Below are positions 2,410-60,939 of a DNA stretch of 64,000 nt, piece by piece; positions within the stretch are counted from its first letter, which is position 1, and each line of letters opens with the position of its first letter. The position numbers and the translations under genes are program-made. A model generated the notes under the pieces. The model saw only the letters and a list, made by a program, of their open reading frames with translations, did not search any database and was not told the origin of the DNA. Source of the DNA: Deroplatys truncata (Eukaryota; Arthropoda; Insecta; Mantodea; Mantidae); NCBI GenBank assembly GCA_030765065.1, contig CM060990.1, positions 5,450,001 to 5,514,000 of the forward strand, in the 5' to 3' direction.

Positions 2410-2411
2410 TA

Positions 2412-2937: not shown

Positions 2938-3770
2938 TCTCTACCATTTACCTATAATAAGTAGGGAAAGCGTTGTATTCCACCCATAAATTAAAAAACG
3001 AGATTCAGGGAAATACACTTTTTGAGACCCACTGAATCCAAAGAAGGCATATTTACTTTTCCTACTACGCACTTACAGTAAGCAGAGGAATTATTGTATT
3101 CCACCTAAAAATTCAATAACATTATTCATCGGAAACACACGTTTTGAGCCCCATTGAATTTACTTTCCCTACTACGCACTTACAGTAAGTAGAGGAATTA
3201 TTGTATTCGACCAAAACTTTAATAACAGGATTAATACTCGGAACGGAAATACTCGTTTTCAGACTCCCTGAAACCAAACAAAGCGTTCTTACTTTCTCTA
3301 CTACGTAGTTACAGCAAGTAGAGCAAGTATTGTGTTCCACCCAAAAATTGAATGAGATTCACCGGATATACACGTTTTGAGACCCCCTGAATCCTAACAA
3401 AGCATTTTTACTTTCTCTACTACGTAGCTACAGGAGGTGGAGAAAGTATTGTATTCCAACCAAAAACTGAATAACGAGATTCACCGGATATACACGTTTT
3501 GAGACTTCCTGGATTAAAGAAAACATTTTTACTTTCTCTACTACGCAGTTACAGTAAGTAGAGAAAGTATTGCATTCCACCCAAAAATTGAATAACGAGG
3601 TTCAACGGAATTCACGTTTTGAAACCCCTGAATCCAAAGTAAGAATTTTTACTTTCTCTACTACGTAGCTACAGTAAGTAGAGAAAGTATTGTGCTCCAT
3701 CTGAAAATTCAATGTCGTAATTCCACCAGAAATCACGTTTGTGACCCCTGAATCCAATGAATTTATTTTT
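2938..3770 (+). repeat. tandem array, about 115-130 bp unit, 6-7 copies
   Basis: Each unit contains TACTTTCTCTACTACG, then a core like GTAGAGAAAGTATTGTATTC, then CACCCAAAAATTGAATAACG and an ACACGTTTTGAGACCCC block. The core recurs near 2960, 3073, 3187, 3318, 3437, 3558 and 3678. The TTTCTCTACTAC/GTAGTAGAGAAA pair inside each unit is a small inverted repeat. One unit of the same sequence, inverted, sits inside Polinton P1 near 24690-24810, so the array belongs to an interspersed element rather than to a pure satellite. Confidence 0.85.
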
Positions 3771-3788
3771 AGACAATGGTCCAAGTGT

Positions 3789-3820
<32 letters not shown>
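3789..3820. repeat. (GT)n microsatellite
   Basis: About 16 uninterrupted GT units. Confidence 0.95.
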
Positions 3821-3822
<2 letters not shown>

Positions 3823-4119
3823 CCACGAATAGCATAACTCAAAAGCAAAAGGTTGGTTAAAACCCGAACTTGGTGTTTAAGTTCAACTTCTTCCAAGAAT
3901 GCGACACTGAGATTTTAAAGAAAATCCTCCACTCCAAACAACCCTTCACATTGGACATTTTTCGAAACTTTTTATTCTTTAAAAATGACTCTAAGAGTTT
4001 TGATTAAAATACATATTTTTAAGCTATTTTCATGATAAATACAATGCATATCTTTTATTTTCTAGGAATAGTCTGTAAATTAGTCTTTATTGTCAATGAC
4101 TTTTGATAATTAGTAAATC

Positions 4120-4122
<3 letters not shown>

Positions 4123-4163
<41 letters not shown>
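4123..4163. repeat. (GA)n microsatellite
   Basis: About 20 GA units. Confidence 0.95.
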
Positions 4164-4165
<2 letters not shown>

Positions 4166-4419
4166 AAATGTTACCGCACAACATCTGTAGATCTTGTTAA
4201 AGCACAAAATTTATATCAAATAACATTTTTATTTTATGTCAAATAACTTTTATATTTTACCTATTCTGAAAGTTTCTTTGTTGTTAGTTTAAATTTTCAA
4301 ATACTTTATACTTCCTTCAACTGCAAATAGCTATTGTTTTTCTTTCTTTCTTTTTTCTTTATTTATTTATTTATTTCTCGTGTTCATACAAAGAGAAGAG
4401 AATTTCAAAGCTATCACGT

Positions 4420-4964
4420 CTGTGGCTCACATTCGGGAGGTCGTGGGTTGGATTCCTCTGGCCGACCTTCCTGAACCATAGGTTTTTTCGGGGGGTTTTC
4501 CCGGGTCGCCAGGCAAGTGCTAGGAAGGATTCTCATATCCCCGAATTTCCGCACCTCCATTTCATCTCCATCGTAATTTCCCTTCATCTTTCATCCGTTG
4601 GTCTGTTTCAGGGTTGGACGTGTCGGCGATGGTGTTTCGGTGCAGTGTGACAGGGGAAAAGAATGTTTTTGTGACTTTCTCCGTCCCTCAGCTTTCGGCT
4701 GCCTGTCGGGAGTATCCTAACTTCCTTGAGGGGCGTTGGACACCCTCTGTGCTGGATGTAGTCCCCGGTCTGCCTGTCCGTCTGACAGGGAGTCCCTATC
4801 TGAAAACTTAGGGACCCTGCCATTCCTGTGCCGTTTTACCTGGTTCCGGACGCCCGATGTCTTGTCTCGCCTCATCCTGCCTCGCGGAGACGTCCCCTTG
4901 TGGGGCGTAGGCACAATATACACTATGTGGATCAGTGCCGAGGACCCTCCGTAGCCAACCAAAC
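4420..4964 (+). mobile_element. tRNA-derived SINE, copy 1, with 14-bp TSD
   Basis: A 545-bp insertion is flanked by perfect copies of CAAAGCTATCACGT (4406-4419 and 4965-4978), which is the target duplication. The head resembles a tRNA: a region reading GGAGGTCGTGGGTTGGATTC looks like a degraded box B. The body matches copy 2 at 6408-6965 over its length (for example CCCGGGTCG, GTGTCGGCGATGGT, TCCCCGGT blocks). It has no coding role and depends on LINE machinery. Confidence 0.85.
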
Positions 4965-5769
4965 CAAAGCTATCACGTAGCGATCAGCTTTGAGGGATTT
5001 GGCTATCGCTTTAGCTTAATATGTTCTGGTTATACCTACAACGAATTGTGAAAATAATTGATGAAGGTTTATCAGTATTAACATGGCATAGGTGCAAAAT
5101 ACGCTTTGTAAGAAGAGTGAGTAGAGAAAATCACGCGAATGCAACACATCATATTTTAGGGCAAAACCTCCATATGCCTGCATCTCTGTGAACAACATAA
5201 ATCCAAAGCGAAAAGTCGGTTAACTACCAAACTTGATATTTGAGTTCAGCATCTTTCAAAGTTGTGACAAGGATTTTCAAGAAAACTTCCCCATCCTGAA
5301 CAACCCTTTACATGGAACAATTTTCGAAATTTATTTTCTTAAAAATGGCTCTAATGATTTTGGTTAAAATACTCACTGTTTAAAATAGTTTCATGACAAA
5401 CGAAATATATTTTTTGAACTGACTGAGAAGAGCCTCTAAAGCCTTCTTCATTCTGAATAACCTTTGTATAATTGGTAAACTCTAAAAGATTGGACAAAGT
5501 TTTGATACACAAGAAATGCAGACCCCGTTAAAGCACGCAGTTTGTTATATATAGTGAGATTAACTAATTCCCACATATTTTTTGTTATTAGTTTGAATAT
5601 TTTTTGTAACTGAGAAGTCGCTATTCGTTTTGTTTTTGTCGCGGTCCTATAAACAGCATGGAATCTCAAAGCATCACGTAGTGACATGCTTTTTGAAAAT
5701 GTGTTTATCGCTTTATCTACATATACTACAACGAAACGTGTAAATGTGAACTTTTTCTTTTGGTATTTA

Positions 5770-6005
5770 ATTAAAGTCCTTTAACCGGGTAGGCCATTAC
5801 GGACGGTGAATGAACAAAATGGTTAAAATGATGCTCAAATGGGTCCGAGGTCACTAGAAATTAGAATCAAACATTCATCTTCTCAGGATAAGAGGAAACC
5901 CTGAAAAAAACTTTACCCAGGTATTTCAGTTTAACAGAGATTGTAACTCGGGACCTTTTGAATGTGAGGCAGACCCCCACACCACACAGAGGAGCTAAAT
6001 GTGAT
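5770..6005 (-). mobile_element. probable SINE fragment, reverse orientation
   Basis: Read on the minus strand the segment starts with TAGCTCCTCTGTGTGGTG, which resembles a tRNA box A, followed about 35 bases later by GGTCCCGAGTTACAATC, resembling box B. The body runs to about 5770. Only the promoter-like head supports the call. Confidence 0.45.
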
Positions 6006-6239
6006 TTGCAAGTTTATCTGTATTATAAGAAGTAGACAGAAAAATGAGACTTAGAAAAAAAATGTAGAATGGTGAGAAGAGAAAGTTATGTGAATGCAAC
6101 GCGTTAGTTTGTTCAATTTAAAATAATAATTTAATCTATATTTAAATATAATTCTTCCTAATCAAATTCTCGTGGTAATGCAAAGAGCGTGGATTTTCAA
6201 AGGCACCTCATAAAAATCTGACTATCGTTTGAGCTACTG

Positions 6240-6405
6240 CATTCTTCTTATACTTACAACGAAGATTGTAATGGCAGTTCATCTCAATTAACAAGAAGAC
6301 TCTTTCACTCAAGCCGTGTGTAGGACAAGGTTGGAAGGATAGAATCAGATTGAAAAATTCAATGTCATAGCCGAGATTTGAACTACGGATCTTCCAGTTT
6401 ACGTC
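6240..6405 (-). mobile_element. possible tRNA-like SINE remnant
   Basis: The minus strand near 6380-6360 reads GTAGTTCAAATCTCGGC, which is close to a box B element. No target duplication or full-length partner was found, so this is a weak call. Confidence 0.3.
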
Positions 6406-6407
6406 CA

Positions 6408-6965
6408 GATGGCGCCGCGGTAACGCGTGCGACTCGCATTCGAGAGATCCCTAGTCCGCTTCCCGGCTACCGCCCAATCTGACGCACGGGTTTTTTTCCC
6501 GAGAGTTTTCCCGGGTCGTCAGGCGAATGCTGATATGATTTCTCTCAGCTCCCGAATATCGTTCCATTCCTCATTTCACTCACCCTTAACCTCGTTAGGT
6601 CTGTTTCAGGGTCGGAAGTGTCGGCGATGGTATTCCGGTGCGGCGTGGCACAGAAAAAGGATTCTCTCTGTGGAACCTTATCCGTCTCTCGGTCTTCGGC
6701 TGGTTGCCAGGGTATAAGGACCCCTTCTTGGGGGGCGTTGGACCCTCTGTTTGGAGTGGGGTCCCCGGTTTGCCTGCCCAACTGTCAGGGCGTCTCAATC
6801 CGGCAATTTTAGGAACTTTGTCATTGCTGTGCCGTCAATCCTGGTTCCGGCCGCTCGGTGTCTCTCACCTCGTCCCTCCCTCCCGGGAGCGCGCCCTTGA
6901 GAGTCACAAGCAGAATATCCTCATTCACTGGATCGGGATCGAGTCCCCTCCGTTACACATTCCAT
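6408..6965 (+). mobile_element. tRNA-derived SINE, copy 2
   Basis: This is homologous to copy 1 at 4420-4964 in the same orientation. The tRNA-like head (GGTAACGCGTGCGACTCGC) is better preserved here, and the segment ends in a short TTCCA-type repeat near 6960. The open frames across it (for example 6638-7075) follow the SINE and are not genes. No target duplication is obvious. Confidence 0.75.
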
Positions 6966-7918
6966 TCCATTCTAGACCAGAGAAGAGAAGCATTTTAAGA
7001 ATTCAGAACGTGAATCGCAATACAAAGCCTTTGGGGGGTGGCCATCTTCAGATTTGTAACTTGAAAGCAATTTAGTTTTTAGAATAGAGTGCTTTCAAGT
7101 GAACCAATTGCCACAAAAGCACATCAACCTATCTGCATTAACACTTCGGGTCACTATTTTGAAAATTTATCTTATCTGTTATCCTAAACGAATAAAACAG
7201 TTATATAGAAACTACATATTTTGCGCTGAACGTTGTTTCCTCGTATCTATTACCATTTTGCATACAATACCTAAATAGGTGTTTTTACTCTACGTCCACT
7301 ATACGACTGGCACGGTTTTTCTTCTTTTCACTTGTGAGTGTGCATATAAGGGGAATTATGTTTCAAATAAAACAATCTTTATTCGTTTTTCAGTAACAAA
7401 CGCAAAATATATCTCATTTTGAAGAAAATTTAATGTTATACTTAAATGTTTCCAAACTGCTTCAACAGTTTCACATTAATATTACTTTTGCTGCCATATT
7501 TTTAAGATTACTTGAATATTATCAGAACTGAATGTGCCAACTGCATGGAACTACACACTTAGCGCTAAACGTTGTGATAGATATCTATGACAATTAAAAA
7601 GCAAAACGAACTTATATTCAAGGTAATAAATACTCTCGGAGCACGCGTAGAACGTTATATTGGTGATAACTATGAAACTATTATTATTAATATTATTATT
7701 TATTACTTGCAACAAACGTTAAAAACAAGATATAAATTATGAAACCTTGTTTCTCAAGAAAATTACTGAATCTTAAACTTGTGTAGTACCCGCATAAAGA
7801 GTGCAATGTTGAATTTTTAAACAACATATTATGCAAAGAATATGTTAATTTATTTCGCTTGAATAGTTCTAGTAAAGAGAAAAGTATTTGGTTTCGTCTT
7901 CTTTCTTTTTAGAGTCAG
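6966..7918. other. no gene seen; weak direct repeat
   Basis: AT-rich flank of P1. A phrase close to GAACTACACACTTAGCGCTAAACGTTGT at 7550 is echoed near 7207, so some duplicated non-coding sequence is present. Nothing coding was recognised. Confidence 0.5.
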
Positions 7919-7924
7919 GTCGCT
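7919..7924. repeat. left TSD of P1 (GTCGCT)
   Basis: GTCGCT immediately precedes the P1 terminus and is repeated exactly at 28420-28425. Six bases is the standard Polinton target duplication. Confidence 0.93.
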
Positions 7925-8640
7925 AGTAGTAAAATAAATGGCGACTCCAGAACAATGGGCTATTGTTCTGGTCAGGACAAAGGAATTAATGACCTATTGT
8001 TCTGACTTCAAGCCCCGCCCCCTCTTTGTGCGCTACTATTTGCCGCCCTGGTCGCGCGTGCCGCTAGCCCCGCCCCTCCCTTTGTGGGCTTACTTAATGC
8101 CGACAGGGTCTGTGCCGGCAGGTCCTCCCCCCTCCCCCATGTGGTCTGGTCGCGTGCCGGTGGCCCCGCCCCCCTCCCTCCCCTTTGTGGTCTGATTGGT
8201 TCCCTGTGGATAGGTGGGAGAGTGTGTATTGTGCCTATACGGTGGATACATTCCCGCCCCCCCTCATTGTGACTTGTCTAAATCTCTGCCGTGTGATTGG
8301 TTCCCCTGCGGATATGTGGGAGAGTGTGTATTGTTAGTATACGCTGGCGACGTCACCCTGCTCTCATAGCGTCCTGTCTAAATCCCCCGCCCCTGGCGAG
8401 GGGGGAATGTGATTCTCGATGCCTGCCGCACAACGGCAAATCGTTTGAGTACATAATTGCGTCAATCAATTACGTAATGTGTTATTGAAAAAAGAATCAA
8501 TGTTTATATACTGTTAATGCAATTAAACGCTGCTCGTCAATCAGTTAAGTATTTTTGATTGATTAAATGTATATGAATTGACTCGCGTGCGGCTGGCCGC
8601 CATCGTATATGTGTGCTAGCATATGTATAACTATCACGCT
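7925..8640 (+). repeat. P1 left terminal inverted repeat
   Basis: The outer about 500 bp matches 28419-27920 in reverse complement with only scattered differences. The inner part (to about 8640) matches the right arm near 27510-27720 more loosely because the right arm has an internal duplication. The region 8000-8420 is strongly GC-rich with CCCGCCCC-type tracts, unlike the AT-rich element interior. The open frame starting MATPEQWAIV at 7938 appears in both TIRs and is probably not a gene. Confidence 0.92.
7950..8011. repeat. two palindromes just inside the P1 end
   Basis: AGAACAATGGGCTATTGTTCT (7950-7970) is a palindrome with 8-bp arms and a 5-base centre. It is followed by a longer imperfect one from GTCAGGACAAAGG to CCTATTGTTCTGAC (7972-8007). 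Both recur in the right TIR at 28337-28394. They could be binding sites for replication or integration proteins; that role is inferred. Confidence 0.75.
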
Positions 8641-8945
8641 CACGGTCTTAACCTGTCTACGGCAACAGTCCGACATGTAATGGAAAACCCGCCAATCGAC
8701 TTCGGTCTGGTAATAACCAGTTTCACCCCACTCCACGACTGTATGCGTGACGTCACTAACAAGCCTCGACGTGTAGACTAGCCAGGCTCCATTCTGTCGG
8801 CGTCGGTAAAACATGTTAAAACACGCTCGCCAATGGCTTTCCTTTGTATTCAAAAACAGACAGCTGGCTTCTGCCTGGAGGGTGAATAACAGGTCTCAAC
8901 AGGCATTCCATCCCCTCCACCGCCGTGTGACGTCACCGTCTACAG

Positions 8946-8952
8946 TATATAA
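8946..8952 (+). promoter_or_regulatory. TATA box of the left spliced gene
   Basis: TATATAA lies about 70 bp upstream of the ATG at 9016, in the unique sequence between the left TIR and the gene. TCAGT motifs like arthropod initiators occur at 8990 and 9001. Confidence 0.65.
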
Positions 8953-9015
8953 GGAACGCTGGCAGCCGGAGCGGCCATTTATTGTTTTTTCAGTGTTCGT
9001 TCAGTGATAATCGAA

Positions 9016-10145
9016 ATGGCTGGTGATCATCGTGCATCTGATGTGAATGATTACTGGAGCGAGTGCGGAGAAGATTATTTTCACTACGTATACTTCCATA
9101 CCGAAACATGCAATGGTTTAATGCATTCAGTGTTGTGTACTCAACCATCGCATCATGATCAGATGACTACACTGGAAGTGTGTACAGAGAGCTGTCCTGT
9201 TTATCGAGGAGCGAACATGTAAGTAATATACATATTTCTATAACTCGGTAATATATTGTACGTCTGTTAAATGAAATCTAACTTGAAATTAGTTTATTCT
9301 TTCAGTGAAAATCGCATGGGTGTTGATGTGGAGGATCTTAGCGATGTCGATGAAGTTGACGATATCTTCGTCTCGAAACACTTAGCTGAATGTGATACAG
9401 AGTCATACACCGGATACATGCATTCTGTACTTTGTACTAACCCAGCCCAGCATGAACGCATGACATCCTTCTTCCTATGTAACGACAACTGCGAGGTCTA
9501 CCAGCGCAGGAAGAGAAAACTCGAGTAAGTAGAAATGATAAATTACATATTCATTTACTGCTTCTAATGCTACTCTGTGTCTAACCTAAAATTAAATTAT
9601 TACAGACTGCGAATGACTGCACCTAAGGTACCCGTGCCAATAGAGGAGCTGGATCCTGAGAGATACGATGTCGATGTAGTGGAATATCCAATCGCAGAGC
9701 GCCATACACAGCCTATGGATGAGGACGCCGCTCCACTACCAGCCATTACTACTAACCCTGATGATAAAGCAACGAGGGTACAGGAGTGGATAAATCAGAC
9801 GACTCCAGATTGCTCACCCGAGATACATACAGAATCGTGCAAGACCGTGAAGTGAGTATGACACTCTTTGATAGTACTTTTTTGTGTGACAAGGGAGAGG
9901 ATTTTTCTAATATATGTATTTGCTCTTTCAGACGCATGAAATCATTAACTAAACCTATTTCTAACATTGTTTTGAATATGTGTTGCAGGGGTGTGAGGAG
10001 GGAGCGGAGGAAGAGGCAGAACGAGACTGGGGAGAAAAAGCAGAAGAGACGGTGTAAGAGGAGGACTCCCAACGAGGGTCCTATGGTCTTCTTATTCATT
10101 GAAGATACCCCAGAGGAGCATGGAGAATCGATCACAGGCGCTTGA
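9016..10145 (+). CDS. spliced P1 gene with duplicated Cys-rich module and basic tail
   Basis: I recognise no named family. Four exons are supported by consensus splice sites and preserved frame: 9016-9218, 9306-9524, 9606-9851, and 9989-10145 (an alternative acceptor at 9931 also keeps frame). The start ATG at 9016 has a good context and a TATA box upstream. Exons 1 and 2 each encode one copy of the same module: a Thr-Glu, GxMHSVLCT, a His-containing stretch, MT, then CxxxC and VY. The repeat pattern of Cys and His suggests a small metal-binding fold. Exon 3 is acidic and Pro-rich. Exon 4 is very basic (RRERRKRQ and KKQKRRCKRR), like a nuclear localisation or nucleic-acid-binding tail. A regulatory role early in infection or transposition is only a guess. 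The 3' end overlaps the next gene by 26 bp. Confidence 0.72.
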
Positions 10146-12679: not shown

Positions 12680-13027
12680 CTAGGATAAAAGAAATTGCAA
12701 GCACAAGTGCCCGCAGATGACTGATTCGAAATTCTGGTATCTCTGTGTATTATAGTAGATTTTAACGCCTTGTAGATATTTCTCAATCTCAGGAGGCGGT
12801 TTCAAATTGCCGAAACTATCAAAGTAGTATGCGACATCACCTTCTTTCCTTATAGCAACCCAGTGTGTTCCTTCATTATCGGAGGTATCGAGATTGGTAA
12901 TAAGTCTCTCTTTGAAGTGTGGTTTTAAAGGAAGTTTGTCAATCATATAAACTCCTCTAAAATAAGGAATTTTTAAACGTTTAGCATAATATTCGATGGC
13001 TACGGTACTTAGGGCTTCCTCCGGTAT
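12680..13027 (-). CDS. adenain-like cysteine protease (virion maturation)
   Basis: The frame with its first ATG at 12946 (MIDKLPLKPH) encodes an Ulp1/adenain-type protease that would process capsid precursors. Counting from that Met, His28 (GTHWVAI), Asp43 (YYFDSFG) and Cys78 (SVICGHLC) form the catalytic triad, and Gln71 sits seven residues before the Cys, as in adenovirus protease. The frame stays open upstream to about 13027 with plausible protein sequence (LKIPYFRGVY) but without any ATG, so the original start has probably been lost, or translation depends on another start. The upstream part overlaps the end of the core protein gene. No stop or frameshift is seen in the body. Confidence 0.8.
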   Translation of the reverse strand: MPEEALSTVAIEYYAKRLKIPYFRGVYMIDKLPLKPHFKERLITNLDTSDNEGTHWVAIRKEGDVAYYFDSFGNLKPPPEIEKYLQGVKIYYNTQRYQNFESVICGHLCLQFLLS

Positions 13028-13712
13028 ATGTACAATCCTCTTCCACCGTTTTTTGCCTTCTTCTTTAAACCCCTGCCTTTAGATCCTCTTTTTTTCAAGG
13101 ACCTTGCTATTTTAGATGCAGCGGCTAAAGACGACATCAGCGGCATTGCAGGTAAGAATCCTCCTTTATTCCTCTTCTTACACCATCTCTTTCGGAGTCC
13201 CTTTCCTCGTGTCTCCATCGCCTTGTTATGCCTCGCAACTTCTGCTAAGTGCCTATCAGCAGCCTTTTTTTTATTGACTGCAGAGGCTATCTGAGCAGCG
13301 CCGCCTGCTGCAGCGCCTAAAGCAGCAATGATGGGTATCAATGGTAAAAACCCTCCTCTCTTCTTCTTCCTCTTTCCGGCTCCCACTGCAACCTTTCCCT
13401 TCATGAATGCAGTTACTAGCCTTGCAGCTAACCTTTCACCAAAAGTTGAATCTGATGACTGCACCCGTTTCCAAGCCTTCTCTGCAAGAATCTTATCCGC
13501 TATTTGTCTTGAAGCGGTGTCCTTATTCTCAGCGTACGCGAGGTCGTGCTGTTGCAAGCTTCGTCTAATTGGTTAATTCCGGGGTCTCCTCTTTTTAGAC
13601 GTTTTTCCAATTTAGTACCAGGCCCACAATATCTATATCCAGGTAAGTGAGCTTCAAAGGGGAGCGAATTAATTATGGAATTAATAATTCCAGAGCCGCG
13701 CTTACACTGCAA
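13009..13712 (-). pseudogene. PLA2-domain / pX-like core protein, frameshifted
   Basis: The N-terminal part (13712 to about 13555) contains YRYCGPGTKLEKRLKRGD, the calcium-loop signature of parvovirus-type phospholipase A2, ending LDEAC. The matching catalytic HDLAY helix lies in the next frame (13557 onward), so about one base has been lost near 13556. The C-terminal part has two similar blocks, each a basic run followed by GGFLPLIPIIAALGAAAGG or GGFLPAMPLMSSLAAASK, resembling membrane-active or core proteins of adenovirus-like particles. Family knowledge: such PLA2 domains help virions escape endosomes. The start is uncertain: no ATG is in frame near 13712. Transcription probably begins at a TATA element at 13768-13779. 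Confidence 0.78.
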
Positions 13713-15718: not shown

Positions 15719-16477
15719 ATGGATAGTGAAAGCATAAGACTTAAAGAGTCTGTAGCCGAGCATACCAGGGCTGTAAAAGAAAAACTGAGAGCTCTAAAAG
15801 GTTTCAGGTTTGAGACTCAGCATGTCATGTCCGAAGCTTTGAAGCCTGTAACCGCCCCCCTCAAGGATATTTTGGACACTCAACGAGGGTTGACTGTGAA
15901 GACCGTCAAGAATGAAGATGGTGATTCTACAAGTATTTCTACTTACCTTCAACACGTTCGCTCAAAAGACAAGGATCGTATTGATACACTGTACGGTGTA
16001 AGATATCAGGATGGAAGTTATATGCTTGGAAATAAAGATATTCATTTTGTAAATAATCAAATATTGATAGGTGATGAAACGTATGAGTCTACCGCCGGTT
16101 TGACGGAGCTCATCTTTAAGCGAACGCCTCAGATTTCTGCATACACTAGTGAAGACTTGGAGACGTACGCTAAGATTATGAAAAGTACTTTTCTTCATAG
16201 AAGTGGTTACACCAGACACGGTCGTTTGAAATCTGGTAAATCGTATAAATACAAGAATATAATACGACCCTTGCTCAATACACATTCAGGTCTAGGACTG
16301 GCATGGAAGGAGCATAAGCCTGATAAGGAGGTTGACTACCTTTTCTGGAGAAATCCTAACACATTAGTGAATAGACTGGGGTTACTTATTGCTTCGAGGG
16401 ACGCTGGTAATAATAGTCACACTCAAGAGATTGAGGAAATTATTCGGGAGTTGAAAGCATCTAAAATTATAGCATGA
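15719..16477 (+). CDS. Polinton PY-type protein (DUF8207-like)
   Basis: The best start is ATG 15719 (MDSESIRLKE); the frame is open a little further upstream. The N-terminus is a charged helix. The middle has IDTLYGVRYQDGSYMLGNK and a TYESTAGLTELIFKRTP motif, and the C-terminus has VDYLFWRNPNTLVNRLGLLI followed by an Ile/Glu-rich helix. This matches the conserved protein commonly found just upstream of Polinton integrases in arthropods (the DUF8207-type region). Its biochemical role is unknown. The stop overlaps the integrase ATG as ATGA (16474-16477). The gene is intact. Confidence 0.75.
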   Translation: MDSESIRLKESVAEHTRAVKEKLRALKGFRFETQHVMSEALKPVTAPLKDILDTQRGLTVKTVKNEDGDSTSISTYLQHVRSKDKDRIDTLYGVRYQDGSYMLGNKDIHFVNNQILIGDETYESTAGLTELIFKRTPQISAYTSEDLETYAKIMKSTFLHRSGYTRHGRLKSGKSYKYKNIIRPLLNTHSGLGLAWKEHKPDKEVDYLFWRNPNTLVNRLGLLIASRDAGNNSHTQEIEEIIRELKASKIIA

Positions 16478-17396
16478 CAGCCAAAAAGAATATCGCCAGA
16501 GAGCTTCACGGATCGGCGAGGAGGAACTATTTACGACGCAAAATTATCAGCAAAGGTATGAATGATTTATTACAGATTGATTTGATTGAAATGATACCAT
16601 ATGCAAGAGTGAACAAAAATTTCAAATACATTCTGATTGCAATAAACTTTTACTCTAAAATGGCATATGCAAAACCCTTAAAGAATAAGGGCGGAGTTAA
16701 TGTTGCAAAGGCTATGGAGGATATATTACAAGAAATGGATGTCCCTCCCCGGAATATTCAAAGTGAGAAGGGGAAAGAATTTTATAACAAGTTCTTTAAA
16801 CGATTAATGTTTAAGTAGAATATTAACCACTACAGCACCTATATACCAATGTGAAGGCTGCGGCTGTTGAACGTTTAATTCGAACCTTGAAGAATATGAT
16901 GTACCGAGAGTTTTTAGTCCAAGGCTCATACAAGTGGCCTGATCGTTTACCTAGAATCCTTGTAAAGTACAATGATACTTTTCATTCCACTATCCGCATG
17001 AAGCCTAATGAAGTGAAAAACAACGATCTTCTTCTGACTGTGTATAATTATAATCAAGACCGAAGAGAGAAGAAGGCTTAAAGGAAGTTTAGTGTTGGTG
17101 ATTATGTCAGGATATCTAAACATAAAGAACATTTTGAAAAGTGTTATGAATCTAACTGGAGCGTTGAAAGCTTCAAAGTATTTCGTGTGAATCGTACCAA
17201 GCCTACAACATACATACTAAAGGATAGGAATGGTGAAATCATAAAAGGTGGCTTTTATGGACATGAACTATAAAAGACTAACTATCCTAACACATATTTA
17301 GTAGAAAAGGTTATACGTAAACGTGGAAACAAAGTTCTTGTAAAGTGGTATGGTTTTGCAGATACTCAATGGATTGATATAAAGGATTTGGTGTAA
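16474..17396 (+). pseudogene. retroviral-type integrase with chromodomain, multiply broken
   Basis: This gene would have inserted P1. The rve core starts with the first catalytic Asp in LLQIDLIEM (residue 36). The second catalytic position reads Glu instead of Asp (IQSEKGKEF, residue 98). The third, Glu, is in KAAAVERLIRTLK. The C-terminal part from about 17297 is a chromodomain (YLVEKVIRKRGNKV ... WYGF ... WIDI), which may target chromatin. Lesions: in-frame TAG at 16816, a two-base slip in a TATATA stretch near 16841-16847, TAA at 17079-17081 and TAA near 17270. The protein is therefore dead. AATAAA at 17410-17415 is its likely polyadenylation signal. Confidence 0.88.
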
Positions 17397-50604: not shown

Positions 50605-50610
50605 AATGCC
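50605..50610. repeat. left TSD of P3 (AATGCC)
   Basis: Six bases before the P3 end; the right copy at 60376-60381 is AATCCC, one mismatch. Confidence 0.8.
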
Positions 50611-50635
50611 AGTAGGGTATATAGAGGAATTCGAT

Positions 50636-51230
50636 CGCAGTTTTTTGCGTGTATATGGGAAAGGATAGGGAAAACGAGGGTAGATGCGACGGTTCAAGGA
50701 GGAAAATGCGTTTATATGGGCGAGATAGGGAATACCAGGGCTGATGCTAGGCTAGACAGTGGTAGAAGGAGGGGGAATGCGGTTTATATGAGACAGATAG
50801 GGAATACGTGGAAAGGTGCTAGGCTAGACGGAGGCTGAGGAGTAGAGTATGGTTTATATGAGAGGTGTAGGAAAACGAGGAGAGGTATTAAGCTAAGCAG
50901 GTTGAGTATACGTTTATAAGGAGACGAGAAAACGGAGAGATCCTATGCTAGAATAGACAGATGTTGAAGGTAGAATGTGTTTTATATATGTTAGATAGGA
51001 AACCAAGGAGATACTCAGCTAGACAGGGGGCAGGAGGCGGAATACGCTTTATGAGAGGCAGGGGATACGGGGAGAGGTGCTAGACTAGACAGTGGTTGAG
51101 AGTAGAGTATGGTTTATATGAGAGGTATAGGAAAACGAGGAGAGTCGGTAGGCTAGACAGGTAGTGTAGCAGTAGGAATATGGACTTATATACAGGAGAG
51201 ATATGGAATAGGAGGGAGATACTAGACCTT
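50636..51230 (+). repeat. P3 TIR zone A: about 60-bp degenerate minisatellite
   Basis: Repeats of a GTTTATATGAGA, GATAGGGAATACG, GCTAGGCTAGACAG pattern. The mirror image is at about 59756-60350. Confidence 0.8.
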
Positions 51231-51309
51231 GAAAGTGACTTTAAGCGAGAACTTCATGAAAATATGTTTCATGTCAATGTTCTAGACATGCCCATCACGT
51301 AACCTATTC

Positions 51310-51520
51310 AGGGAAAAGGTGAATCGTTCAGGGGCAAAAGGTGACTGCTCAGGGAAAAAGGTGCCCCACAAAGGGAAAATGTGACCAGCAAAGGGAAAAA
51401 GGTGACCAGTAAAGGGAAAAATGTGACCAGCAAAGGGAAAAAGGTGACCAGCAAAGGGAGAAAGGTGGCCACCAAAGGGAAAAAGGTGAGCCATAAAGGG
51501 AAAAAGGTGACCTGCAACGA
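51310..51520 (+). repeat. P3 TIR zone B: 21-bp repeats
   Basis: AAAGGGAAAAAGGTGACCAGC repeated about nine times with small changes; mirrored at about 59465-59675. Open frames across it (Phe/Pro/Leu-rich) follow from the repeat and are not genes. Confidence 0.92.
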
Positions 51521-51544
51521 GAAAAGCTAACCCACTAACACTAA

Positions 51545-52930
51545 CAGGTAAGTAATTCAGCTAGTATTGCAAGAGGCTGACTGCATCATAGCAGTGTATG
51601 ATTTCACAGGTAATTCAGCTAGTATCGTATGTATTTAGGCTAATTAATCTAGTATCACAGGAGGATAGATTCCAGAGGGTAACTGCATCATGGCTCTGCA
51701 TGATTTCACAGGTAATTCAGCTAGTATCTTAGGTATTTAGGCTAATTCAGCTAGTATCACAAGAGGATAGATTCTAGCGTTGGGTATAGCTTAGTGTCGT
51801 ATTTCACAGGTAATTCAGAGAGTATCGTAGGTATTTAGGATAATTCAAGTATCACAGGCGTTTAGAGTAATTCAGCTAGCATTACAGGAGGGTAGGTTCC
51901 AGGGGTCGGTTATAACATAGCTTCGTATTCCACAGATAGTTCAGGTAATATCGTAAGTATTTGAGGTAATCGACATAGCTTCACAGATATTATTGATAAT
52001 TTCGATCAGAGATTTGTATCACAGCTATTTAAGGTAAATGCAGGTGATTCAGGTTGTATCAATGGTATTTGAGTCATTTTAACAGGTAAGTCATCTAGTA
52101 TCATTGGTATTTAAGGCAAACCAGATAGTATCACAGGTGCTCGTGCTAATTTAGAGCAGGAATTCGTATCAGAGCTAGTTAAGGTAATTTCACATAATTC
52201 GGGTAGTATCACAGGTATTTAAGTCATTTTCGCAGGCAATTCAGCTAGTATCGTGAGCATTTAAGCTAATTCAGCTATTATCACAGGAGGCTAGATTCCA
52301 GAGGCTAACTGCATCATAGCTATACATGATTTCACAGGTAATTCAGCTAGTATCGTAGGTATTTAGGCTAATTCAGCTAGTATCACAGGAGGTTAGATTC
52401 CAGGGCTGGGTATAGCATAGTTTCATATTTCACAGGTAATTCAGAGGGTATCGTAGGTATTTAGGATAATTCAAGTAACATAGGTGTTTAGAGTAATTAA
52501 GCAAGCATTACAGGAGGGTAGGTTCCAGGGGTTGGTTATAACCTAGTTTCGTATTTTACAGATAATTCAGGTAATATCGTAAGTATTTGGGTAATCAGCA
52601 TAGTTTCACAGATGCTCGTGATAATTTCGATCAGAGATTTGTATCACAGCTATTTAAGGTAAATGCAGGTGATTCAGGTTGTATCAATGGTATTTGTGTC
52701 ATTTTAACAGGTAATTCAGATAGTGTCTAGGTATTTGGGCGATTCAAGCATCATAGGTGTTTAGAGTAACTCAGCTAGTATCACAGGAGGCTAGATTCAA
52801 TGATCAGGGTTTCGTATCAGAGCTATTTAATGTAATTTCACTTGATTCGAGTAGTATCACAGGTATTTAAGTCATTTTAACAGGTAATTCAGATAGTATC
52901 ACAGGTATTCATGGTAATATAGAGAGTAAT
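51545..52930 (+). repeat. P3 TIR zone C: AATTCAGCTAGTATC iteron-like repeats
   Basis: Dozens of short units such as GGTAATTCAGCTAGTATC followed by GTAGGTATTTAGGC or ACAGGAGG occur, with longer compound periods of several hundred bases. Mirrored at about 58060-59440. No coding potential. Confidence 0.88.
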
Positions 52931-53295
52931 TAGATTATAAACATTTCGCATCCAACGTTACGACACTTTATATACTTTTTTCTAAATCTTACAAAACGTT
53001 TATATGTTAAACAGTTAGTGGACGAGGCTGAGAGGGATAAACTGCCTGTGGGTTTACAAAATGAAAAGCCATGCATCAACATACCTTAATTTAGTCCGTC
53101 GTACGTGCCTCTCCCTTTTTATCTAGGCTTGAGACTCGCACTAGGAATGCTCCTAATGGCAGGGTTAACACCTCCCCTTCCATCCTCTTCTTTCTTCATC
53201 GGACGGCTGCTAGTTGCATACACAGCACGTGAGTAAACTTAATTTTTTAAGATTGTAGACTCACGAGAAAATCTTTATCTTTAACTTGCATTCTC

Positions 53296-56200
53296 TTAAG
53301 CACTGTTTGTAATACTGTAATGTCCATACGCATAGGTAGTTACTCCATCCTCGGCAATAACTCTTTTATCATCAAAGGGATTCAATGTAATTTTATTCAC
53401 TTGTACTGTGGTAACAGCGTGCTTTCGCGATAGGATTAGATTCATGGGCGTTCTGATGATTTCACAGGTTTTAAGACAGTCTGTATAGCTGTCAAACGAA
53501 ATGTACTGCTTAATAGCGCTACGTTTTATACCTTTAATCTTTTTTATCATTGGTCCTTGAATATATAAGGCATACATCTTAGGACGTAGTCCAACAAAGC
53601 GTAGGATGATTTTGCTATTAGCCTCATCTTTAAATTTTCCCAATACCTTCTTGTTCTGAGTGGAGTGGCATATATGATTGACAGGGTAATCAGCTGTATC
53701 GAGATGCTCAAGAAAACGTAGCTTGTCCTGGTACACATCTTCAGTTGTTACACGATGAATGAATGAATGAATCAGTGTCCATATACAGAAGCTTCAGGTT
53801 TTCAGCTCCATAATAAGGCAACAACACGTCGTAATGATAGTTATACATTAATGTCTTGGAGATGTCCAACACACTCATACCAATGTATATAGGCTTGTTG
53901 AACACAATCTGACGAGAGGCCATATGTACAGCAGCTAGATTAGCAGCATATATCGTCCTGTCGATAAACGTAGGCTTAGCGATCAGCTTCTCTAGAGTTT
54001 TTTCATTGGTCACCAGTCGTATGTCCATACGGTTACGCAGGTTCTCCATAGTTTTTCCAAACATGGTGTTGTTAAAGAGCTTGTAGAGATCCTTCTCGAA
54101 ATCATTTGCAGCTTGTTGTCGTAGCCTGTTGTTAAATTCCACATAAGGTTTCAACCACCGAGACTGTCGGAATTGTAGCACACGATGGATTTTTGTTAGT
54201 CGTAGTCCATGACTAAGAGCTTGCTTCAAAGTCATGTAATGTACTACATACCTCTTTCGAGGTCCAAGGTGATGTATCAGTTTCTTTGTAGATGCTTCCA
54301 ATGGTTTCATACACTCTGGCAGGAAAGGTATATCGTTGTGTAGATCGTGAAGTTCTGCAGGATACTCGATATCGACTTCTAATATATACCCATGAGGATC
54401 ATCTTCTTGTAGTGTTTCTAAGTTGATTTCTTCAGGTGACACCCACTGAAATCCACCAAAAGGAAGGGCGTGACACATTGCCCACCCATATTGGTTATTA
54501 GTGTCCTCGTATGTGATATATTGGGTTGGTCTCGACGGATCAAACTTCTCCATATAAGTGCTATTAGCCTCTGCATACCGATGAGAAACTTGACATAAAC
54601 CTCCTCTTATACCTGATTCCACCATGAGTAGTTGATCATAATCTTGTAACAGCTCTAACTTAATTCCAGTATACAGTAACATAGCGTCCCATGTAAGACC
54701 TGGAGAGGTAAAATAACGGGCCGGATTGACTTTATGTGTTTTGAGGGTTTGCTCTCTGAACGTCTCAAAGACTTCAGCTAGAAGAAGTACATCCGAAGCT
54801 AAGTAGAGATCGCTGTACTCTCCCAGGTTTCTCACATTAAACAGCTCCCATACATTTCTAGCATGATCGTAGTCAGTATCAGTAATTTCTTCTTCATTTA
54901 ATCTATTGTAGAAGGAGTCCTTAGGAAGCAAGCAGGTCTCGTTCAAGGCATCCCATGACGTAACAAAATCATATGGAAATACGCCCTTACGTGTCATCAA
55001 CTTCAATTTGTCTTCTCCGAAGTACTTTAGCGTTTCAGGATACGAGGTTAGATTTTTTACCAACTTATCCAAGCTTGTACTGAGGAATCGGAAGCTATCC
55101 ACAAATCGAAGCTTTATATCTCCTACATACTTGGTGAATGAGATATAGCTTTCTTCAGAGTTAGGAATTACCTCCACACGTTCACTTGTGCACCCCAACT
55201 CCTTTACAATGAAATGCGAGTCATATCCGCTAAGGTTATGCATGAAGACTGGTATATATTTAGGTGTTTTACAGGCTAAATTACATTCATTATGAAGACT
55301 TCCACGATATTCACCGCTGATGTGATCATGGTCGCGTACTTTATAGTTCTCTTATGTAAAGGGTTTTCCACACAAGTAGCATGTCGTAGAAGACTCAAAA
55401 TCCTTTTGCTGTTGATCCGTAAGTTTCAGAGGCTTAGCAGATTTGTATACGTCATCAATCATTTTTGCAAGAGATGTCAGGTACATCATAAACTTCTGAG
55501 CAGCATCAGCACCACGATATACATAGGGTTGCTTAGGAAGTCCAGTTTCGAGATGTTCAACACTGGATGTAGGCTTCACGTAAACACAGAAGCTCATTGG
55601 TGTGTGCTCTTGATAAGGGGTTGTATAGCAAGTTTCAGGATTGGCTATACACGTATGGCATGGAGTGAGAATACTCTCAAAATCAGCATAGATGACATAA
55701 GGTAGTTTCAGCATCCTCTCAACATTTTTAAACTGTACAATTGATTTCTCCTTGGTAGGCATAACTACCCTTACAACACCATGTTGATTACAGGTAGCTG
55801 CATGTTCTTGTAGTTTTTCCAGTCCACTTCGTCCATATCGCTTATCAAAATGTGTAAAACAGCGCTTGCAGGTATAAACACGTTCATTACATTTAGTTTT
55901 CTGGCGTCGAACGAGCTTCTCAAAATTCTTTATATACACGTAGTGATGTTTTCCACTGCTGTCATTCAATAGTAGCAGGTCGCGATGTTCAGGTAGTTCA
56001 ATATCAGCAACCTTTATGGGATACACTTCATGCTTCTCATCCAGCCCGAAAACGTTAATAGACATATTGTTAAACTTCTCAAATTTAGGTATTTGAGAAA
56101 GTGGAGTAGGGTAGGAAACACAGCTGAAGTCGTACTTATCTTGAAGTTGTTTGTATTTGCTCACACGTTGCGCATCCTTCTCAAAGAATTTAGCTAATAT

Positions 56201-56848
56201 AGAGTACATGAAACATTTCTCGCCGGTAAAGTTCTGAATGTTTATACACGCTTCTTTAGCTCCGACAGATGACGGTAGTGGTATGTAGCTACTTCCTCGC
56301 AACGGATTGTACTTGTTGATACGAAGTCGAACTCCTTCCACAGCAAGCAAAGCCCAGTTGCTACCCTTAAGCTGAGACTCCTCCATTTCAGTCACCAATT
56401 TCTTGAATTTCACTTCCATCGTTGACTCCAGATCAGTTTCCAGGAAAACAGCTTGATTCCGTGTTTTAAATGTTTTGTCACAGGTTCCTCCAATACTGTT
56501 AACAAATCGACACTCAACCAGCAGATTAATTTTCACACTTTTGTGAATACCGAGCTCTTTATGCACAGCCTGGATTATGGGTTGTTTTGCTTCATGCAGA
56601 TACATATTTAGGACCTTAGGTGATTCGCATCGTATAAAATACGATTTTAATCGTCCTTTGAATGAAGTTTCGTATTCTTTCATATCACCGTCCTCCATTG
56701 TTGACAGCAACTGATGTTTAGTTGGCTCCAATCTTCTTTTCTTCTGAGGGCTGCTTATTTCACATATATCTTCGTGTCGCTGCCCCTTATAACCATCTTT
56801 GAAGGTTACATTACAATGTTTACATTTGAAGAGCTTCTTGCAGCTCAT
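53296..56848 (-). pseudogene. P3 DNA polymerase B (one stop, one frameshift)
   Basis: Family B, protein-primed-type polymerase, the only P3 gene and of the same lineage as that of P1. From Met 56848 (MSCKKLFKCK) the frame has C2H2-type fingers (a further CGKCGKKF finger lies in frame just upstream, 56900-56850), an INIQNFTGEKCF segment, Exo I YADFES (about 55685), a CxxC plus RDHDHISGEY insertion, Exo II GYDSHF, Exo III YSDLYLASD, Pol A YEDTNNQYG (about 54500), Pol B NNTMFGKTME and Pol C YMDTDSF (about 53775). Lesions: TAA at 55352-55354 in otherwise continuous frame, and a shift at 53757-53772 where ATTC is repeated. The true start may lie upstream. Last codons are inside the TIR. Confidence 0.9.
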
Positions 56849-57444
56849 CTCGTGTCTTCTCTTGTCATAACCTCGGAGGAACTTCTTCCCGCATTTTCCG
56901 CAGGCATATCATGAGACACTAGGAATGATATCCTTATACACTGAGTTAATCATCCTTATTCTTAATGTAATAACGTATTAATCACTGATCAATGAAATGT
57001 AGACCTCTTCACCTTGATAACACTTTAGAAAGCTGATTATTTTCTGAGAGAACAGCGATGTTAACACCTCAAGACTAATTAGCACAAATGAAGTCCAATG
57101 CCCTAGATCACCATATTTATAGAGGGAGCACGAACCTTTTAGATCAATCATAAACTCGCTCCATAACCAGCTGTATATGATCGCTCAACGTGTATTAACC
57201 TCAGCCATATAACCTCACGCCCAGAAGCAGGATGTTTATGACGTCACACCTAGAGACAGGATGTCGATTCTGGCGCACAGAGAGATGCCGACAACTGATA
57301 AGCTTCTTTATTCTAAGCCGGCAGCCCCGCCCTTTTATTTCTACTGATTAATCGCTTATATCTCCTGAATGAAAACAGATAGAACACTGGGATGAAAACT
57401 AGTCCATTCTTTGGAATGCGCCGCGTCATTAGGTTATTGTTCCA
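56849..57444 (-). promoter_or_regulatory. P3 polymerase upstream region with TATA box
   Basis: The minus strand near 57125-57110 reads CTCTATAAATATGG, a good TATA box about 260 bp upstream of the coding region. The rest is leader and promoter sequence up to the inner edge of the right TIR. Confidence 0.55.
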
Positions 57445-57689
57445 AGACTAAAGGTATAAAACGTAGCGCTATTAAGCAGTACATTTCGTTTGACAGCTAT
57501 ACAGACTGTCTTAAAACCTGTGAAATCATCAGAACGCCCATGAATCTAATCCTATCGCGAAAGCACGCTGTTACCACAGTACAAGTGAATAAAATTACAT
57601 TGAATCCCTTTGATGATAAAAGAGTTATTGCCGAGGATGGAGTAACTACCTATGCGTATGGACATTACAGTATTACAAACAGTGCTTAA
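57445..57689 (+). pseudogene. truncated 3' copy of the P3 polymerase gene in right TIR
   Basis: Encodes the same C-terminal residues as 53296-53540 (KGIKRSAIKQYISFDSYTDC to GHYSITNSA), in opposite orientation. The sequence before it is unrelated to polymerase, so the copy exists only because the TIR extends into the gene. Confidence 0.9.
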
Positions 57690-60375
57690 GAGAATGCAAG
57701 TTAAAGATAAAGATTTTCTCGTGAGTCTACAATCTTAAAAAATTAAGTTTACTCACGTGCTGTGTATGCAACTAGCAGCCGTCCGATGAAGAAAGAAGAA
57801 GATGGAAGGGGAGGTGTTAACCCTGCCATTAGGAGCAATCCTAGTACGAGTCTCAAGCCTAGATAAAAGGGGAGAGGCACGTACGACGGACTAAATTAAG
57901 GTATGTTGATGCATGGCTTTTCATTTTGTAAACCCACAGGCAGTTTATCCCTCTCATCCTCGTCCACTAACTGTTTAACATATAAAAGGTTTGCAAGATT
58001 TAGAAAAAACGTATATAAAGTGCCGTAACGTTGGATGCGAAATGTTTATAAACTAATTACTCTCTATATTACCATGAATACCTATGATACTATCTGAATT
58101 ACCTGTTAAAATGACTTAAATACCTGTGATACTACTCGAATCAAGTGAAATTACATTAAATAGCTCTGATACGAAACCCTGATCATTGAATCTAGCCTCC
58201 TGTGATACTAGCTGAGTTACTCTAAACACCTATGATGCTTGAATCGCCCAAATACCTAGACACTATCTGAATTACCTGTTAAAATGACTCAAATACCATT
58301 GATACAACCTGAATCACCTGCATTTACCTTAAATAGCTGTGATACAAATCTCTGATCGAAATTATCAATAATATCTGTGAAGCTATGTCGATTACCTCAA
58401 ATACTTACGATATTACCTGAACTATCTGTGAAATACGAAGCTATGTTATAACCGACCCCTGGAACCTACCCTCCTGTAATGCTTGCTTAATTACTCTAAA
58501 CGCCTATGTTACTTGAATTATCCTAAATACCTACGATACCCTCTGAATTACCTGTGAAATATAAAACTATGCTATACCCAACCCTGGAATCTAACCTCCT
58601 GTGATACTAGCTGAATTAGCCTAAATACCTACGATACTAGCTGAATTACCTGTGAAATCATGCATAGCTATGATGCAGTTAGCCTCTGGAATCTAGCCCC
58701 TGTGATACTAGCTGAATTAGCTTAAATGCTCACGATACTAGCTGAATTGCCTGTGAAAATGACTTAAATACCTGTGATACTACCCGAATCATGTGAAATT
58801 ACCTTAACTAGCTCTGATACGAATTCCTGCTCTAAATTAGCACGAGCACCTGTGATACTATCTGGTTTGCCTTAAATACCAATGATACTAGATGAATTAC
58901 CTGTTAAAATGACTCAAATACCATTGATACAACCTGTATCACCTGCATTTAACTTAAATAGCTGTGATACAAATCTCTGATCGAAATTATCAATAATATC
59001 TGTGAAGCTATGTCGATTACCTCAAATACTTACGATATTACCTGAACTACCTGTGGAATACGAAGCTATGTTATAACCGACCCCTGGAACCTACCCTCCT
59101 GTAATGCTAGCTGAATTACTCTAAACGCCTGTGATACTTGAATTATCCTAAATACCTACGATACTCTCTGAATTACCTGTGAAATACGACACTAAGCTAT
59201 ACCCAACGCTAGAATCTATCCTCTTGTGATACTAGCTGAATTAGCCTAAATACCTACGATACTAGCTGAATTACCTGTGAAATCATGCAGAGCCATGATG
59301 CAGTTAGCCTCTGGAATCTATCCTCCTGTGATACTAGATGAATTCGCCTAAATACATACGATACTAGCTGAATTACCTGTGAAATCATACACTGCTATGA
59401 TGCAGTCAGCCTCTTGCAATACTAGCTGAATTACTTACCTGTTAGTGTGAGTGGGTTAGCTTTTCCCGTTGCAGGTCACCTTTTTCCCTTTATGGCTCAC
59501 CTTTTTCCCTTTGGTGGCCTCCTTTCTCCCTTTGCTGGTCACCTTTTTCCCTTTGCTGGTCACATTTTTCCCTTTACTGGTCACCTTTTTCCCTTTGCTG
59601 GTCACATTTTCCCTTTGTGGGGCACCTTTTTCCCTGAGCAGTCACCTTTTTCCCCTGAACGATTCACCTTTTCCCTGAATAGGTTACGTGATGGGCATGT
59701 CTAGAACATTGACATGAAACATATTTTCATGAAGTTCTCGCTTAAAGTCACTTTCAAGGTCTAGTATCTCCCTCCTATTCCATATCTCTCCTGTATATAA
59801 GTCCATATTCCTACTGCTACACTACCTGTCTAGCCTACCGACTCTCCCCGTTTTCCTATACCTCTCATATAAACCATACTCTACTCTCAACCACTGTCTA
59901 GTCTAGCACCTCTCCCCGTATCCCCTGCCTCTCATAAAGCGTATTCCCCCTCCTGCCCCCTGTCTAGCTGAGTATCTCCTTGGTTTCCTATCTAACATAT
60001 ATAAAACACATTCTACCTTCAACATCTGTCTATTCTAGCATAGGATCTCTCCGTTTTCTCGTCTCCTTATAAACGTATACTCAACCTGCTTAGCTTAATA
60101 CCTCTCCTCGTTTTCCTACACCTCTCATATAAACCATACTCTACTCCTCAGCCTCCTTCTAGCCTAGCACCTCTCCACGTATTCCCTATCTGTCTCATAT
60201 AAACCGCATTCCCCCTCCTTCTACCACTGTCTAGCCTAGCATCAGCCCTGGTATTCCCTATCTCGCCCATATAAACGCATTTTCCTCCTTGAACCGTCGC
60301 ATCTACCCTCGTTTTCCCTATCCTTTCCCATATAAACGCAAAAAACTGCGCTCGAATTCCTCTATATACCCTACT
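57445..60375 (-). repeat. P3 right terminal inverted repeat (2.93 kb)
   Basis: Reverse complement of 50611-53542 with few differences. The first about 245 bp (57445-57689) duplicate the 3' end of the polymerase gene, pointing rightward and lacking a promoter or start, so it is a truncated gene copy and not a second gene. Confidence 0.93.
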
Positions 60376-60381
60376 AATCCC
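60376..60381. repeat. right TSD of P3 (AATCCC)
   Basis: One mismatch from AATGCC at 50605-50610. Confidence 0.8.
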
Positions 60382-60939
60382 GCATTAGAACCTATTCCTA
60401 ATAGACTATTATTTGGAATGGTCAAAAATACAAATTTTTCTGGAAATAATAATTCAAATCCATACGAGTTTCAACATTTTGGACTTACACATTTCGCATT
60501 TATCATAAATGGTCAACAATTTCCTTCAGAAGGTCTGTCAATAGATACAAGCCACGAAAAGTGTTTCACTATGGCATATCAAGCTCTGTTCTCCGGTTCT
60601 GGTATTCATCACAGAAATAACGGAATTCAAATCGCCCACAACTTGTATATTAAGGGGCATTTCTTGCTCCTCTACGATTTAACTCCGGGCAGCTCTGCTT
60701 CAGAAGGTCATGCCAGTCTGCTGGTCAGCGGAAATGTTAAAATAGAGCTTAAATTTAAAGACAAATTAACCGAGCTATTACATGTATAATTCATTGTGAA
60801 TATGATAATAGCTTTCAAACTGCTAAAAACAGACGCATGTTTACCGACTTCTAATGAATAATATACAAATTTAAAAGCCTTTGCACAACATTCCAAACTT
60901 TAAGGGAGGTTTTTCTTCTGAAATGTTGCTTTTAATTTT

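Follow-up and report, generated by a model that had tools for sequence, protein, structure and literature searches.

The window analysed here, 64,000 nucleotides from the mantid Deroplatys truncata (GCA_030765065.1, contig CM060990.1, positions 5,450,001 to 5,514,000; C16, 707 Mb), contains P3, an element of 9765 bp (50611-60375) belonging to a family whose complete form is a palindrome of approximately 15-18 kb, with two facing copies of polB and ~8.6 kb per arm. The AGTAGGG...CCCTACT ends reported in the initial annotation are directly visible, the termini reading AGTAGGGTATATAG and CTATATACCCTACT. The left arm (50611-53541, plus strand), consisting of a repeat-rich end and the last ~250 bp of polB, and its inverted copy on the right (57444-60375, minus strand) are 98.2% identical over 2933 columns of the self-alignment, and a second, separate alignment gave 2930 pairs with 50 mismatches. 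The arms account for 60% of P3, as had been described for terminal inverted repeats of about 2.93 kb; each includes a 21-bp tandem repeat (51332-51525 on the plus strand, mirrored at 59461-59654). The 6-mers flanking P3, AATGCC (50605-50610) and AATCCC (60376-60381), agree at 5/6 bases, so that the 6-bp target duplication previously ascribed to P3 is present but imperfect.

The single P3 gene above the Pfam cut-offs is polB, a type-B DNA polymerase (PF03175, E 9.8e-29) on the minus strand, lying between the arms and reaching into them. It comprises three open pieces: a carboxy-terminal one (53296-53793) alignable to the polB of P1, a Polinton of the same window; an exonuclease/palm piece carrying the PF03175 match (53741-55351); and an amino-terminal piece (55352-56908) with a zinc-finger-like start, by eye, a terminal-protein-like fold and the invariant C232 and H322 as in vOTU. 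The polymerase had thus been correctly singled out as the only recognisable gene, but it is not intact: one in-frame stop and one frameshift between its open pieces make P3 polB a pseudogene. At a first deletion joint (57251-57265, overlapping matches to L029), the left arm passes directly from the start of polB into the axis loop. The loop (57266-57340, approximate borders) belongs to type B, the form also present at the axis of C10:58455672-58473108, a palindrome of the family. Next comes the stem edge beside the palindrome axis (57331-57446, by comparison with the family palindromes), which ends at a second joint where the right arm jumps from axis stem to terminal arm (57444-57446). Because both joints map onto a C10-type palindrome, P3 corresponds to such a palindrome minus most of both centre halves and minus one polB. 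Judged from its sequence, P3 is an internally deleted, frame-broken and inactive copy, not the type of the family, and its 2.93-kb repeat is the remnant of an ~8.6-kb arm after two deletions.

Copies were sought in the 4.29-Gb assembly. A 290-bp end query gave 40 scored places, the best of 4103 first-look candidates. A 35-bp end pattern allowing up to 2 mismatches found 117 ends (60 forward and 57 reverse), against 0 + 0 for the reversed control. Pairing ends by hand among the matches listed yielded at least 42 elements of 0.42-18.2 kb, 24 of them spanning 13-18.2 kb; ends without a partner among those matches are additional to the 42. From these places we took a sample of 22 elements, selected by end similarity and thus non-random: P3; 10 of 15 further two-ended elements from the 290-bp search, as left and right pieces; the central 9.9 kb of C10:58455672-58473108 and of C1:144325765-144339975 (C1b); one complete 9.4-kb copy (C6c); and eight shorter copies. 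The initial annotation had left room for P3 being a one-off deletion derivative; its parent would then be a classical Polinton. Sequence is indeed missing from P3, and over its main part the P3 polB has 43% identity to the P1 polB, but the 117 near-identical ends and 13 other copies (9.4-18 kb) assembled from the same P3-type parts refute this idea as stated, and we consider it highly improbable; the alternative proposed there, a multi-copy family with the same ends, is what the genome holds. Five two-ended copies of 9.4-9.6 kb, one of them read, lie inside 0.8 Mb at C6:191.20-192.03 Mb, and are probably one asymmetric derivative multiplied by segmental duplication.

Five copies of 15-17.4 kb (C14, C13, C3, C15 and C10), read through the middle, are near-perfect palindromes. 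In C14, positions 416-9523 match 16828-7679 in inverted orientation (97.9%), C13 is self-complementary along its whole 17.1 kb (98.1%), C3 (96.6%) and C15 (93.9%) are palindromic through the axis, and C10:58455672-58473108 is palindromic (97.7%) across the 9.9 kb fetched. C8 and C7b are palindromes with a one-sided centre of 0.56 kb and 1.26 kb, respectively, and further asymmetric forms are represented by C1, C6, C11, C5, C1b, C6c, L038 and L039. From the end inward, the arm consists of a repeat-rich end of ~2.7-5.2 kb, a polB of 3.7 kb whose carboxy end points outward (present only as remnants in the C3 arms) and a centre of ~1.6 kb. At the axis, an unpaired loop of 65-73 nt separates the arms; one loop sequence, type A, is common to C14, C13, C3 and C15 (in C13 in opposite orientation), while the other type occurs in C10 and P3. 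The type A loop (L009 ~8765-8838; L048 ~665-735) sits between two outward polB genes and contains, by eye, what we take to be GC-box-like and octamer-like motifs, on which grounds it may be a two-way promoter. At C10:159.833-159.855 Mb, two facing polB pairs with a spacing of 14.4 kb have the appearance of two palindromic elements in tandem.

Ends of the AGT...ACT type with a 6-bp target duplication are the rule in Polinton/Maverick elements, and the family conforms to it. Among the 19 elements checked (the sample apart from C10, C1b and C6c), the duplication is exact in 14, including L034, which is located in TA repeats, matches at 5/6 bases in three and is lacking in two, and the flanks differ between elements. 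Since 6-bp target duplications flank the palindromes, these integrate whole. A chance inverted repeat, considered for P3 and rejected, is made very unlikely by the 117 ends against 0 in the reversed control and by exact duplications within differing flanks. Long-read chemistry can yield false inverted dimers, and the palindromes might in principle be artefacts of assembly or reads; given differing flanks, matching duplications and sequence differences between the arms, we find this scarcely conceivable.

The gene content was assessed by translated search with thirteen protein pieces of P1 against 32 sequences from the 22 elements (E<1e-3), C10 and C1b being represented by their central 9.9 kb only. 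P1 polB pieces matched 25/32 and 23/32 sequences. None of the 32 was matched by the two P1 integrase pieces (tblastn), so no RVE integrase was found in the 22 elements, nor by the two pieces of the major capsid protein (MCP), a double jelly-roll capsid; the P1 frame 12680-13078, protease-like by eye only and with no Pfam match over cut-off, and the remaining P1 pieces besides polB and the ATPase relic described below also gave 0/32. Copies with these ends that carry integrase or capsid genes, envisaged in the initial annotation as evidence against a polymerase-only family, are therefore absent from the 22 sampled elements as probed with P1 queries. Among the frames listed for L009, L010, L029, L030 and L031, no gene besides polB was recognisable, and no parvovirus-type capsid or superfamily 3 (SF3) helicase was recognised in the part of these frames that was scanned. 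A relic of the packaging ATPase, 27 residues located ~1.0-1.3 kb from the end, reached E<1e-3 in 18/32 sequences (best 1.2e-5), whereas 0/320 did so in a shuffled-protein control. A stop codon comes only a few codons later, and nothing else of the ATPase remains. The order and direction of the relic relative to polB match P1, and so the arms resemble a Polinton that deletions have pared down; these 27 residues mark Polinton ancestry. In a predicted structure, the amino-terminal part of the polymerase (residues 71-203) has a terminal-protein-like fold according to VIA-align, with no OTU structure among the matches listed in that comparison, and Foldseek with the whole polB model returned nothing at E 0.001 or below. 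As integrase, intact ATPase and capsid protein were all tested and not found, we do not file the family under Polintons proper. It is a palindromic, polymerase-only satellite, Polinton-like in its ends and polymerase, of which P3 is a decayed member.

A 127-aa frame in the arm centre was considered as a second gene and rejected. It has no Pfam match, with its L030/L031 counterparts matching far below the cut-offs, gaps between some copies are not multiples of three, and the codon-position differences (351/423/521) are weakly biased; it is therefore probably non-coding. ARAGORN found no tRNA genes in the arm centre (L009, L048, L029, L044), and a search for close relatives in viral contigs gave two pattern matches, neither confirmed.

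How the two arms of an element stay alike can be read from polB. In a tree of 21 polB stretches, each above 1500 bp (without the C3 remnants and the incomplete second copy in C11), both copies of an element are sisters in 7/8 cases (C14, C13, C15, C7, C5, C10 and C1b; support at least 99/94). Divergence within an element is 0.12-1.21%, versus 1.0-5.7% (mean 3.4%, 78 pairs) among 13 elements. Between elements, the rates at codon positions 1, 2 and 3 are 0.024/0.021/0.051, and fixed differences between two clades number 9/8/26 (p=0.0008). Differences between the arms of an element are flat (68/74/59, p=0.43), as are changes found in a single row only (108/98/88, p=0.36). In contrast, changes private to one element and present in both its arms are rich in third positions (23/17/42, p=0.002), and the two classes, both-arm and arm-arm, differ (Fisher p=0.0006), all these counts treating sites as independent; 82 of the 90 both-arm changes fall in coding columns, and C1b supplies 30 of the 90. 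The codon-position pattern indicates that polB was under purifying selection in past mobile copies. Because both-arm changes passed this selection and arm-arm differences are neutral, the arms were made alike before insertion. Furthermore, an element with a long outer part on one arm also has a long one on the other (length correlation over n=8 elements: Pearson 0.98, Spearman 0.95), and in C3 both arms carry one and the same polB deletion as well as a common foreign stretch of ~2.6 kb. If one arm serves as template for the other during every mobile cycle, sister arms, the codon contrast, matched lengths and the C3 pattern are all expected and would be accounted for together; sister arms and the codon-position contrast are what a snap-back replicon, its arms made alike within the mobile cycle, should display.

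The same observations bear on a different explanation, in which a palindrome inserts and its arm identity is then kept by ordinary chromosomal gene conversion, without hairpin replication. The arms of sex-chromosome palindromes are kept alike by gene conversion, and the smaller polB distance within than between elements would fit such a process. Conversion in dead copies, however, would give flat both-arm changes, which is not the distribution observed, and the divergence between arms ranges tenfold among copies, as expected from age. The arm evidence thus argues against later chromosomal conversion, which we regard as quite unlikely.

The palindromic state also extends beyond the P3-type ends. 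A 201-bp stem query taken beside the axis gave at least 65 matches (the best 40 of 871 first-look candidates being scored), comprising 15 single matches and 25 facing pairs, of which one is partial, with ~70-95 bp between partners. Two of the pairs are C14 and C13, and 23 lie elsewhere, by eye outside P3-type ends among the matches listed. One such pair, L048, is palindromic over all 1401 bp fetched (97.6%), and the centres of C14, C13 and C3 are 88-91% alike to it. About 7.2 kb away, L049 has the end AGTAGGTTATTTAGG, and its first 0.9 kb is 77% alike to the P3 arm. We infer that the L048 axis and the L049 end belong to one element, the 5.5 kb between them lying outside the reading. If so, an element with diverged ends is also palindromic, the palindrome would predate the split of subfamilies, and the palindromic state looks old. 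Likewise, among the best 40 of 2727 candidates for a 501-bp polB query, 16 form 8 facing pairs. C16 holds 22/40 of these best matches and represents 16% of the assembly, a share that may reflect an uneven distribution of the P3 subfamily among chromosomes.

That the axis stem is better kept between subfamilies (88-91%) than the ends (77%), as in a hairpin telomere, would suit a mobile form consisting of a single 8.6-kb arm, hairpin-closed at the loop, with the palindrome as its replicated dimer and dimers integrating. Yet no resolvase-like gene was recognised, the loops of 65-73 nt exceed typical hairpin telomere loops, and one-arm insertions number 0/22 in the sample, a count of little weight since elements were chosen with both ends. 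We consider this form unlikely.

A source of integrase is at hand. P1 (7925-28419) carries an MCP assigned to PF21738, packaging ATPase, integrase and polB, with several frames broken, and illustrates a possible helper type. Its integrase (16465-17081, plus strand) is in two pieces, the first matching PF00665 at E 2.1e-5, below the Pfam cut-off, and the second recognised by eye. A PF21738 search of the genome gave 126 scored matches of 7123 candidates, with frames of 346-439 aa among the matches listed, one with an internal stop; the best candidates were scored first, which favours intact copies. Given the abundance of capsid-bearing Polintons, integrase should be plentiful. From these matches, Polintons in this genome look recently and massively active. 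One capsid-bearing Polinton, C10:54200862-54217247 (L044-L047), has 2993-bp inverted arms, with MCP and neighbouring genes, that are 100% identical, ~2 kb of each arm lying outside the comparison. Its centre holds one ATPase-integrase region together with a portion of polB, and its outer ends are 99.2% identical over 513 bp, with CATGCT at both sides. As its arms are identical, symmetric Polinton recombinants seem to arise here recently. Two more facing MCP pairs were seen at C4:95173324/95185244 and C16:687831100/687853440.

Taken as a whole, we think it probable that the family consists of capsid-less, Polinton-derived palindromic transposons with snap-back replication and integrase provided in trans, P3 being an inactive deleted copy. 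The family polB, with its own terminal-protein-like domain, would prime at the AGTAGGG end, and the displaced strand would fold back around the loop into a hairpin of ~8.6 kb. One molecule being its own complement, a single kind of end would suffice, and copying or repair inside the hairpin would equalise both arms in each cycle. A Polinton integrase, given in trans, would then insert the duplex, duplicating 6 bp of target. Once in the chromosome, the arms would drift and deletions near the axis would break the symmetry, leaving forms like P3. The self-replicating, integration-dependent satellite of the initial annotation thus gains from the selection on polB, the lack of an integrase match in the 22 elements and the abundance of Polintons, and would presumably borrow their integrase; P3 itself does not serve as its type. 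In its wider form, the proposal is of a lineage which, without capsid and integrase, became an obligate self-complementary replicon, replicating as one protein-primed hairpin in which a single strand restores both halves at every cycle, inherited as a palindrome throughout the divergence of subfamilies and integrated by other Polintons; here we see the chances as even.

Several points weigh against this proposal. The mechanism is read from genomic fossils, with the extrachromosomal hairpin, the terminal protein and the helper integrase as predictions. All genome evidence comes from one genome, and the sample required both ends to be present, one-ended forms being outside its scope. The C8 arms are not a supported pair and are not separated from C6 in the tree. 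L032 and L037 (2/19) have no matching duplication, and P3, C14 and C8 are those agreeing at 5/6 bases. The ATPase relic is non-significant in P3 itself (E 0.46). Finally, six small copies (422-1740 bp) show 89-96% self-complementarity over their full length, mismatches being mainly central, but they are of about three kinds and, except for L037, have only ~130 bp per end in common with the long elements. Small miniature inverted-repeat transposable elements are often palindromic regardless, and for both reasons these copies add little.

Directly outside P3, an unbroken 123-aa frame (60418-60789, plus strand) has 31 relatives without informative names and zero matches in Pfam or PHROG. It may resemble the F54H12.2-like proteins of Polinton-type elements, in which case P3 may be seated inside an older element. 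At 1504-2214, the window also contains a mariner-like (SETMAR-type) transposase frame, recognised by eye.

Among known systems, Polinton/Maverick elements are alike in their protein-primed-type polB with a terminal-protein-like domain, AGT...ACT-type ends, 6-bp duplication and the ATPase of which a relic persists. The family differs in having no integrase, capsid, protease-like or intact ATPase match, and in being palindromic as a whole, with two polB copies. Symmetric recombinants (SYREC) of adenovirus 12, a protein-primed genome, form a large palindrome in which both termini are copies of one genome end; they resemble the P3 family in this respect but are helper-dependent passage variants and are not inherited. 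The snap-back genomes of adeno-associated virus (AAV) are a by-product of a parvovirus with another replication route, whereas the P3 family is heritable and chromosomal. Cytoplasmic and mitochondrial linear plasmids are extrachromosomal linear DNA with a terminal protein, while the family is known here from chromosomal copies alone. The size class of Polintons, 15-20 kb, is that of the family (PMC4028283, in part). The self-complementary, double-stranded AAV genomes in snap-back configuration, as described in PMC8235507, share the self-complementary form and provide a working analogy. A deletion derivative of the kalilo plasmid with hairpin and duplex DNA (Vierula and Bertrand 1992, from the title as cited in PMC11071308) is likewise a hairpin derivative of a polB-bearing linear replicon, but of a mitochondrial plasmid and not of an integrating transposon family. 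Bidnaviridae, according to sections of PMC4061559, share a Polinton-type polB and inverted terminal repeats and are without the Polinton capsid set; they are single-stranded viruses with a parvovirus-type capsid and helicase, whose repeats lack parvovirus-type hairpins. Neither DNA transposition by way of a self-complementary, protein-primed hairpin nor a palindromic Polinton was found in the part of the open-licence literature surveyed.

Long palindromes are normally unstable in chromosomes, yet this selfish element, up to 18 kb long, appears to have stayed palindromic throughout the divergence of its subfamilies. The family, whose copies differ in age, offers a natural setting in which to follow the passage of a protein-primed replicon from a two-ended duplex to a self-complementary hairpin, and the symmetric capsid-bearing Polinton suggests that the start of this passage is observable as it happens. 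It bears on the Polinton origin of capsid-less replicons and single-stranded viruses, as well as on satellite-helper relations among transposons.

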